Assembly: GCA_004028765.1 (NCBI GenBank)
Contig: SAIX01000107.1
Location: 1-64,000 of the forward strand
DNA from: Chitinophagaceae bacterium
GTDB lineage: Bacteria > Bacteroidota > Bacteroidia > Chitinophagales > Chitinophagaceae
Direction: 5' to 3'
DNA length: 64,000 bases
In this document: in pieces, positions 39,217 through 60,345 of the stretch
How positions within the stretch are numbered: position 1 is the stretch's first letter
Layout of the letters: each line of letters begins with the position of its first letter
Translations under genes and position numbers: made by a program
The notes under the pieces: generated by a model
What the model was told of the DNA's origin: nothing
The model's input: only the letters and a program-made list of their open reading frames with translations
Databases searched by the model: none

Positions 39217-39394
39217 GGGAAATAGTTGGGAATTAAGAATTATGAATTAAGAATGGGAGTGATACTGATCACTATCCCCTTTTAACTTATAACTCTCGCC
39301 TCCCTTCCGGCCGCAAAAATAATCGTTTTGGGTATTCCGTGTTCAGAAAACAGGGATTGGGGTTTTTCAGTACATTGGATGCATAAACCCTTAT

Positions 39395-40635: not shown

Positions 40636-40875
40636 GAATATTGAGCAAGGAATACTGAAGGGTTTTGCTGAAAATTTGTGAATGGGTGAGGGATTTTCAG
40701 TTAGGAGTTTAGAGTTAGGAGTTAAAAGTTTTCAACGAAAGTCAAATTATCTTAACTTTTTAACTACTCTCTATGAACTGCTGTGTGCCCTGTGTCTCTG
40801 TGTTGAAAAGTGAGTGGTAGTGACTAATCCGCTAATCCGGAATTCGCCATTGCTTATTCAATATTCTATATTCGA

Positions 40876-46233: not shown

Positions 46234-47184
46234 CTACTTTTTCTGTTCCTTTATTCTATTGTTTGGATTCAAAGCAGTTTCTTCTACCACTTCCGGGAAA
46301 TACCGGTGTTCAAGAGCATGAATTTTATGTGCAAGGGTTTCGGGGGTATCGTTGGGTTCAACAGGGCAGCGTGCCTGGAAAATAGGTGCGCCTTCATCAA
46401 ATTTTTCATTTACATAATGAATAGTGATACCGCTTTCTTTTTCGCCTGCGGCGATAACGGCTTCGTGTACATGCATCCCATACATGCCTTTGCCGCCATA
46501 CTTAGGCAATAAGGCGGGATGGATATTGATCATACGGTTGGGATAGGCACGCACCAAAACTTCGGGTATTTTCCAGAGAAAACCTGCCAATACCACAAAC
46601 TGTATATGGTATGATGCCTGCAGTACCGGTAAATAAGCATCTCCCCTGAAAAAACGTTCTTTTTCGATCTGCAGAACAGGGATATTGTTTTTATCTGCAA
46701 TTGAAATAACCCCTGCCCCCGGTTTATTGCATACGATCAAAGCCACTTTCAAACGGGAATGATTGGCGAGGCGCTGGATAATCTTCCCTGCATTCGACCC
46801 GGCACCTGAAGCGAAAATGGCAATATTCAAAGGAGTCTGGAGTAGGGAGTTAGGGGTTTGGAGTTTTGTATCGGTCGTATTTACTCCAGACTCCAGACTC
46901 CAGACTCCTAACTTGCCCAGCAGTTTCTTCTCATATTTCCAGAAAAAAGCCCATTGGCCCAGCAATGCACCATAAAAAAGAAGGATCACCTGGTAACCAA
47001 ATACTAACATACCGAGGCGAAGGAATAGTTTCCATACCCAGTAACTGCCGGTGTCCATACCGAGCCAGGCAGTAACATAGCGGGTTAAAACGGCGGTGGT
47101 GGTACCTGTTAATCCGAAAACAAGGAATAAAATCCAGAACTGTTTAGTACTTACCCCCCATTTTTGCTGCAAACGTTTAAACAT
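46234..47184 (-). CDS. purN: DUF6787-like membrane domain fused in frame to PurN (GAR formyltransferase)
   Basis: One frame of 316 residues joins two units. Residues 1-92 (MFKRLQQKWGVSTKQFWILF, two or three membrane helices, then FWKYEKKLLGKLG) resemble the DUF6787 family of small Bacteroidota membrane proteins. Residues 119-316 are phosphoribosylglycinamide formyltransferase, the third step of purine synthesis: IAIFASGAGSNAGKII at the start, the catalytic Asn220-x-His222 in NIHPALLPKYGG, and Asp263 in KFDEGAPIF. The join, residues 93-118, is coded by an intergenic-type repeat (three AGACTCC copies and a 12-base inverted repeat). PurN may instead start at TTG 46830 (Leu119), which would give a normal 198-residue enzyme. 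There is no stop codon between the units, so a fusion is the plain reading. Confidence 0.8.
   Translation of the reverse strand: MFKRLQQKWGVSTKQFWILFLVFGLTGTTTAVLTRYVTAWLGMDTGSYWVWKLFLRLGMLVFGYQVILLFYGALLGQWAFFWKYEKKLLGKLGVWSLESGVNTTDTKLQTPNSLLQTPLNIAIFASGAGSNAGKIIQRLANHSRLKVALIVCNKPGAGVISIADKNNIPVLQIEKERFFRGDAYLPVLQASYHIQFVVLAGFLWKIPEVLVRAYPNRMINIHPALLPKYGGKGMYGMHVHEAVIAAGEKESGITIHYVNEKFDEGAPIFQARCPVEPNDTPETLAHKIHALEHRYFPEVVEETALNPNNRIKEQKK
46832..46908. repeat. Repeat tract inside the DUF6787-PurN frame
   Basis: GGAGTCTGGAGT (46832-46843) and ACTCCAGACTCC (46883-46894) are a perfect 12-base inverted repeat. AGACTCC occurs three times in tandem at 46888-46908. The words between are of the same 7-base-period kind as those in intergenic tracts nearby. 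Here they lie in an open frame and encode the linker between the two domains. Confidence 0.85.
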
Positions 47185-48684: not shown

Positions 48685-48758
48685 TCGGGTAACCGCAAAG
48701 GCGGGACCGGAAGAGGCATTTTCAAATTTTCAAATTATCGAATTTTCAAATCAGAATA

Positions 48759-59265: not shown

Positions 59266-60228
59266 ATGGCAGAAACAAACCGGGGCTCAACCTCTTTTTC
59301 GCTGGCTTCGAAAGTGAAAGATTACTTTCAGCTTATCAAGTTCACGCTGAGTTTCACGGTGGTATTCTCCTGTGTGATCTGCTACCTGCTCGCACCCAAT
59401 GTGGTGGATTACGACTGGTGGACGATCTTCTTGCTCTTTGTAGCCGGCATGCTGGTAACAGGCAGTGCCAATGCAATTAACCAGGCAGTGGAAAAAGATA
59501 CAGATGCGGTGATGAAAAGAACAGCATCGCGCCCTGTTGCCGGTGGAAGGATGAGCCAGGAAGAAGCCTACATTTTCGCCGCCATAACCGGCTTAACCGG
59601 GGTGGTGATGATGGGATGGTTCTTTCGCAGTGCAGAAAACGGTTTTAACTGGAATGCGGCGTTGCTGTCGGCCTTCAGTCTTTTTTTGTATGCGTTTATC
59701 TATACGCCGCTGAAAAAGATCAATTCCATTGCCGTACTCGTTGGCGCTTTCCCCGGTGCATTGCCCTGTTTGATCGGCTGGGTGGCGGCAACCAACCTGC
59801 TGAACCCGATGGGAGAAGTGATGGCGAATGGGAAAACATTTTCGAATGCAGGTGGCTGGGTACTTTTCGCGATACAGTTTCTGTGGCAATTCCCGCATTT
59901 CTGGGCAATTGCCTGGGTGGCGCATGGCGATTACAGTAAAGCAGGATTTAAATTGTTACCAGCCGACAAAGGCCCGACAAGATTTACAGCGATACAAGGC
60001 ATCATGTATTCTGTATTGATGATCCCGGTTGGGATACTGCCTTATTATTTCGGTATGACGGGACAGGTAAGTATGTGGATATTGATCCTGTGTAACCTGT
60101 TTATGGTATTTCAGAGTGTGCGCCTGTACAAAGAGATGAATGCAAAAGCGGCAAGAAGGGTTATGTTCAGCAGTTATATCTACCTGCCGATCGTATTACT
60201 TTCATTGCTGGCAGATAAGATAAGGTGA
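59266..60228 (+). CDS. ctaB: Protoheme IX farnesyltransferase
   Basis: This 320-residue UbiA-family prenyltransferase adds the farnesyl group to heme b to make heme o, a step needed for heme a of the oxidase. The two aspartate-rich motifs are in NAINQAVEKDTDAVMKRT (first) and the YTPLKKINSIAVLVGAF region (second); RPVAGGRMS follows the first, as in CtaB/CyoE. Nine membrane helices are expected. It sits between coxA and two subunit-III genes. The 8-copy GTGAGTG repeat begins 3 bases after its stop codon. Confidence 0.94.
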   Translation: MAETNRGSTSFSLASKVKDYFQLIKFTLSFTVVFSCVICYLLAPNVVDYDWWTIFLLFVAGMLVTGSANAINQAVEKDTDAVMKRTASRPVAGGRMSQEEAYIFAAITGLTGVVMMGWFFRSAENGFNWNAALLSAFSLFLYAFIYTPLKKINSIAVLVGAFPGALPCLIGWVAATNLLNPMGEVMANGKTFSNAGGWVLFAIQFLWQFPHFWAIAWVAHGDYSKAGFKLLPADKGPTRFTAIQGIMYSVLMIPVGILPYYFGMTGQVSMWILILCNLFMVFQSVRLYKEMNAKAARRVMFSSYIYLPIVLLSLLADKIR

Positions 60229-60231
60229 GAA

Positions 60232-60287
60232 GTGAGTGGTGAGTGGTGAGTGGTGAGTGGTGAGTGGTGAGTGGTGAGTGGTGAGTG
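60232..60287 (+). repeat. Eight perfect tandem copies of GTGAGTG
   Basis: The heptamer GTGAGTG repeats eight times without a mismatch over 56 bases, in the gap between ctaB and the first subunit-III gene. AT-rich words (TTAATTATTAATTG...) follow at 60298-60340. Partial copies of the heptamer occur in gaps near 40811, 44520, 44680 and 51882. A perfect tract of this kind is prone to slippage, so copy number may vary between strains. Confidence 0.95.
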
Positions 60288-60345
60288 AATGCGTAGGGTA
60301 TTAAAATTATTAATTCTTAATTATTAATTGTTAATTAATAAAGTG

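Follow-up and report, generated by a model that had tools for sequence, protein, structure and literature searches.

In the genome of a Chitinophagaceae bacterium, a single reading frame joins a DUF6787 domain to the purine enzyme PurN through a segment encoded by a 7-bp tandem repeat of an intergenic type, raising the question of whether the repeat made the fusion or entered a linker that was already there. Here we analyse this locus within a 64,000-nucleotide stretch of DNA (the window), together with related loci and similar arrays in the same genome and in its relatives. The evidence makes it quite probable that an old Chitinophagaceae DUF6787–PurN fusion with a lax linker was entered by mostly intergenic, palindromic heptamer arrays, yielding a membrane-anchored PurN in which the repeat would be passive filler.

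Architecture of the DUF6787–PurN fusion

The 316-residue reading frame (46234–47184, reverse strand) is uninterrupted, with no internal stops. The DUF6787 domain (46906–47133, reverse strand; residues 18–93) contains two long hydrophobic helices, placed at residues 13–40 and 49–91 in the AlphaFold model and visible as hydropathy peaks, and matches Pfam PF20584 with 61.8 bits against a gathering cut-off of 27.5. The PurN domain (46285–46827, reverse strand; residues 120–300) matches Formyl_trans_N (PF00551) with 150 bits against a cut-off of 26.1, and a Foldseek search was topped by PurN structures such as 3tqr. The motifs INIHPALLP at 219 and NEKFDEGAP at 259, which we take to be the catalytic Asn-His and Asp motifs of PurN (GAR transformylase), are intact, and with the fold they predict an active enzyme. 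Because the only other PurN match in the genome is weak (E = 1.6e-5) and no PurT match in it reached the curated cut-off (502 bits, as compared with 127 for the best), the fusion is probably the sole GAR transformylase of this genome. The AlphaFold model, built with 29 aligned sequences, consists of the two long helices, a linker and the PurN domain, with pLDDT values below 50 at residues 98–113. The protein would be translated as one chain and anchored in the membrane, and the simplest reading of the modelled linker is a passive, disordered tether.

The linker (46831–46908, reverse strand; residues 93–118, 26 residues) reads GVWSLESGVNTTDTKLQTPNSLLQTP and lies in a continuous frame, which bears out the proposal of the initial annotation that an intergenic-type 7-bp repeat serves here as coding sequence. 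On the coding strand, it comprises a G-rich arm of (GGAGTCT)n units (46883–46908), which reads approximately GVWSLESGV, an 18-nt loop (46865–46882; inverted repeat I1) and a C-rich arm of degenerate ACTCC-type heptamers (46832–46864; inverted repeats I1–I6), which reads approximately LQTPNSLLQTP. TRF describes 46883–46908 as a direct repeat with a period of 7 bp, the unit ACTCCAG and 3.7 copies at 100% matches. The tract is palindromic, its arms 46832–46850 and 46883–46901 being 89% complementary; single-stranded DNA from 46826 to 46920 folds with z = −4.6 (200 shuffles), and the linker folds as RNA with z = −5.9. With up to one mismatch, GGAGTNTGGAGT occurs nine times in the window, compared with 0.55 expected, and six of these occurrences lie within the linker tract. 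Across the whole genome, GGAGTNNGGAGTNNGGAGT gives 51 matches, many of them overlapping inside one array, and the reversed control gives none. Directly after the tract, a TTG codon (46828–46830, reverse strand, first base 46830; residue 119) is the sole in-frame ATG, GTG or TTG codon from residue 75 to 125.

Age of the fusion

The initial annotation had expected the two domains to be separate adjacent genes in relatives, joined here when the repeat replaced the intervening stop and start; the relatives support neither part of this account. From 8,000 candidates scored in a homologue search, the best 120 consist of the window's own protein and 119 others that are 62–78% identical to it, and 118 of these best 120 carry both landmarks in one protein. 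We further examined 138 DNA loci (30 + 28 + 80, with the own locus and some duplicates included), retrieved by querying with the fusion or an alignment of it, which favours fused loci: 71 are fused (the own locus and two duplicates included; 69 distinct linkers), 17 are separate, in that a stop intervenes or the two domains lie in different frames, 42 lack the DUF6787 landmark in the approximately 700 bp upstream, and 8 lack the PurN motif sought and were dropped. Many of the fused linkers are short and non-repetitive, and the best-matching named loci are, going by their titles, largely from Chitinophagaceae. Among six order-level relatives with a DUF6787-like match, five have it on a contig other than that of PurN, and in the sixth it shares the contig with PurN at a distance of about 86 kb. 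In a FastTree phylogeny of 203 PurN sequences (the 42 loci lacking DUF6787 and the 8 dropped loci left out, and 84 of 199 inner branches open), the fused and separate states require seven changes, and the tree does not give their direction because its root is the midpoint. Judged from these sequences, the fusion appears to be older than the repeat.

One relative of the same genus (G010) encodes PurN without DUF6787 upstream (locus L037) and has no listed DUF6787 match, which is possibly a loss of the fusion; one heptamer array was seen in 220 kb of this genome.

Heptamers in the linkers of homologues

A six-residue peptide encoded by a pure heptamer tandem is present in 82 of 118 homologue linkers, as compared with a mean of 1.8 and a maximum of 6 after shuffling, and in 0 of 118 for each of three same-length windows elsewhere in the homologous proteins; because the homologues share descent, these are not 82 separate events. 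At the DNA loci, a heptamer-encoded 6-mer occurs in 14 of 69 linkers, versus 0.65. In the 60 of 69 linkers long enough for a periodicity test (p ≤ 0.01), period 7 is significant in 16 and period 14 in 13, and each of the remaining periods from 2 to 15 is significant in 0–4 (0.6 expected), so that, by the period test, 44 of the 60 fused linkers tested in the wider family are not heptameric. The units include AGTCTGG/ACTCCAG, AAACTCC, AAAAGTC, ACGACTC, ACAGACC and AACAGCC. The initial annotation had regarded a fusion shared by all relatives with an unrelated linker as evidence against its account; the relatives do share the fusion and some have unrelated linkers, but many carry the same or other heptamer repeats.

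These comparisons bear on the alternative that the repeat itself gave rise to the fusion, taking the place of the stop and start that had parted two genes. The tract lies exactly at the junction, some relatives (17 of the 138 loci) have separate adjacent genes, and old repeats may have eroded into non-repeat linkers, all of which would suit such an origin. However, relatives are fused through short non-repeat linkers, nearly all of the best listed homologues (118 of 120) are fused, and heptamer linkers are longer than the others, as expected for later insertion (at the DNA loci, median 38 versus 26 residues, 15 versus 53 linkers, p = 4e-5; in the proteins, 35 versus 33.5 residues, 82 versus 36 linkers, p = 0.008). 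We therefore consider an origin of the fusion from the repeat improbable.

Another alternative is a role at the RNA level: a hairpin at the domain boundary would delay ribosomes or tune how much PurN is made, and TTG 46830 might also start a PurN of its own. The strong RNA fold of the window's linker, the still stronger one of the linker at locus L090 (z = −9.9) and the position of the TTG next to the PurN domain would be in keeping with such a role. Against this, 11 of the 16 period-7 linkers stay short of z = −2, comparable arrays occur inside single enzymes such as HisS, and a start-type codon stands in the last three codons of 6 of 69 fused linkers; such a role seems improbable to us. Folds with z ≤ −2 are found in 5 of 16 period-7 linkers versus 2 of 40 others, and because the former number is so small, the palindrome was often lost or never complete. 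In relatives, a separate PurN would often have no start within the linker: counting from the ninth codon past the landmark, in-frame ATG, GTG and TTG codons are all absent from 25 of the 69 distinct fused linkers, including 2 of the 16 period-7 linkers.

The long linkers of 16 of the 120 best homologues (P0063, P0070 and P0090 among them) share the motif [RKM]LFI, mostly followed by two D/H residues and also recognized by eye at L090, which may be conserved in its own right or may form the loop of a repeat element.

Turnover at the junction

On the PurN tree, the heptamer label changes at least 32 times, with at least 9 changes forced by starred branches. At a PurN identity of 80% or more, 305 homologue pairs differ in linker class, although some of these are merely worn copies (for example, P0071/P0081), since the class rests on the 6-mer rule. 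In P0002 and P0047, whose PurN and DUF6787 domains are each 94% identical, one linker is a repeat and the other reads FTSLAPKTTHKKPPTA. Among 127 pairs of heptamer linkers with PurN at least 88% identical, only four are without a related unit, and one of these (P0072/P0079) shares a common stretch by eye. The clearest switch of family is between P0061 (ACAGACC) and P0073 (AAAAGTC), with PurN 91% and DUF6787 88% identical; the pair P0036/P0072 was dropped as a candidate, as P0036 scores as 'other' in the 6-mer test. These sequences suggest that gain, loss and decay of linker repeats are common at such depth and, because so few of the close heptamer pairs have unrelated units, that switching of family is rare.

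Heptamer arrays across the genome

We surveyed 839,177 bp, comprising 40 fetched regions and the window, of the 3.7-Mb genome, which is assembled in 140 contigs. Period-7 arrays number 84, as compared with 0, 1, 0, 0 and 0 for periods 5, 6, 10, 11 and 13; periods 8, 9 and 12 give 18, 7 and 3 arrays, so that, given the counts for 8 and 9, period 7 is dominant but not exclusive. One of the 18 places with an 8-bp period lies in the window, at 48718–48751. Measured against open frames of at least 120 residues, a crude proxy that covers 86.8% of bases and differs from gene calls, 54 of the 84 arrays are intergenic, 19 partly overlap an open frame and 11 lie inside one, where about 73 would be expected at random. 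On average, the 54 intergenic arrays are open in 1.74 of six frames, and 16 of them are closed in all six. A strict inverted partner lies within 150 bp of 13 of the 84 arrays and of none of 84 random stretches. In the regions sampled, array density did not differ significantly between eight genomes with heptamer linkers and ten others (p = 0.196).

The initial annotation had placed similar tracts between genes in the window. By the same proxy, this holds for 39230–39254, but 60225–60287 and 60305–60336 partly overlap open frames; the latter two belong to a stretch (60225–60341) in which a long GGTGAGT array is followed by an AATTATT array. A further tract, 40699–40730, has a period of 14 by TRF.

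Two contigs begin in GGAGTTA arrays (G000:C118:5-100 and G000:C121:1-96); the assembly possibly stops at longer arrays, in which case our count would be a lower bound. These contig starts and the 140-contig assembly could also hint that repeats were mis-assembled into the coding region, but linkers of the same kind recur with differing units in many other records, which makes such an artefact very improbable.

In-frame arrays in other genes

Among the 84 arrays, nine are in frame in eight conserved genes, encoding HemC (two arms), a glutamine amidotransferase, HisS, a pseudouridine synthase, an amidohydrolase, PyrD, an E1 dehydrogenase and the DUF6787–PurN fusion. Two further candidates, L192 15999–16029 (in an open frame without a Pfam match) and L200 16473–16496, were left uncounted; they lie near the 5′ end and are probably start-site artefacts.

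The two HemC arms together occupy a stretch of 23 residues (VNGQWSMVNSEKKSLTTHHSPFT), at a point where alignment with G010, G027 and G017 is interrupted. The loop is shorter in G027 and L213, and it is non-repetitive and of similar length in L210 and L211; given these loops, and as HemC matches were found in just 12 of 45 genomes, 'insertion' is a relative term here. The HisS loop keeps a constant length in relatives and looks repeat-like by eye in this genome and G010, and not in the other 28 fetched; the array there is thus a replacement rather than a clean insertion. At the E1 alpha–beta junction, this genome and G033 have ACTCACC-type arrays (with both arms by eye in G033), and G217 has a different unit (STVDRPPSTVDRRP). 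The lag-7 scores are 18.5, 15 and 17.5, respectively, as compared with at most 6.5 in the other 28 fetched relatives. G010 shows by eye a left-arm-like HSQWSLAN at this junction.

A model for heptamer capture

The reading that we favour, capture of arrays by an existing fusion, would run as follows. The DUF6787–PurN gene fusion of Chitinophagaceae would be old and its linker loosely constrained, and palindromic 7-bp arrays would have entered this linker and then changed over time. As seven is coprime with three, a heptamer tandem uses the same seven codons in all frames; a stop-free unit such as GGAGTCT, with its complement, is therefore open in every frame and tolerated when the total length preserves the frame. 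Stop-prone units such as TAACTCC would be tolerated only if the phase happened to suit, as in the C-rich arm of the linker. In the product, PurN would most likely be held at the membrane by a disordered tether, in which the repeat is a passive filler, and further conserved genes show the same kind of capture in their variable loops. In this model, the neutrality of the repeat and the order of events are inferred, as any mechanism of its spread would be.

A wider reading, to which we give an even chance, is that palindromic heptamer arrays in Chitinophagaceae act as a continuing source of new linkers and loops: they would enter a restricted number of tolerant sites in core genes, at times switch family in place with little change in the domains on either side, and decay into ordinary-looking linkers, with the DUF6787–PurN and E1 junctions as hot spots. 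If so, these two junctions would allow turnover to be followed between sister species.

The capture of arrays by an existing fusion would mean that a mostly non-coding class of repeat repeatedly supplies protein sequence at recognizable sites in conserved enzymes, for which the seven-codon rule offers a simple reason. At the junction, insertion, replacement and decay would then form a natural series open to testing, and linkers that lack any recognizable homology may be worn repeats.

Comparison with known repeat systems

In the REP/RAYT system, a Y1 transposase gene is flanked by its repeats. We considered a Y1 transposase as the mover of the heptamers and found no support for it: the genome has a single Y1_Tnp match, and its 3.3-kb locus contains no heptamer arrays, unlike a REP/RAYT locus.

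A 1997 paper by Vioque, cited in PMC4748335, reportedly describes STRR repeats of cyanobacteria within the gene for RNase P RNA; these resemble the present arrays as short tandem repeats within a functional gene, but the gene there encodes an RNA. Heptameric repeats (GGGNATC and TAACTGA) are known from Xanthomonas, Nostoc and Beggiatoaceae. In the available parts of the respective reports, 68% of those in Nostoc are intergenic (PMC4692102), and one TAACTGA set lies inside a putative PurC gene of Flexibacter litoralis, a member of the Bacteroidota (PMC4679880). The likeness to our arrays thus extends to the 7-bp unit and a mostly intergenic location with some copies within genes; as far as those parts go, however, these repeats were reported for regulation and G-quadruplexes rather than for protein linkers or site-recurrent capture. 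In the open-licence literature searched, judged mainly by titles and the openings of abstracts, we recognized no account of heptamer-encoded protein linkers in Bacteroidota and found no paper that uses the term DUF6787.

Protein-coding palindromes have reportedly been described in Wolbachia, as they have in Rickettsia. According to the accessible sections of two papers, Rickettsia palindromic elements are about 105–150 bp long and occur between genes and in frame within conserved genes (PMC10969869, PMC2229807), and an insert in the Rickettsia guanylate kinase left the enzyme active with a changed substrate affinity (PMC2229807). The heptamer arrays are likewise dispersed inverted repeats, found both between genes and in frame in conserved genes. 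By contrast with the elements described in those sections, the window tract spans 77 bp with arms of short 7-bp tandems, and the arrays comprise many units, sometimes as a single arm, and one fusion linker hosts several families across species.
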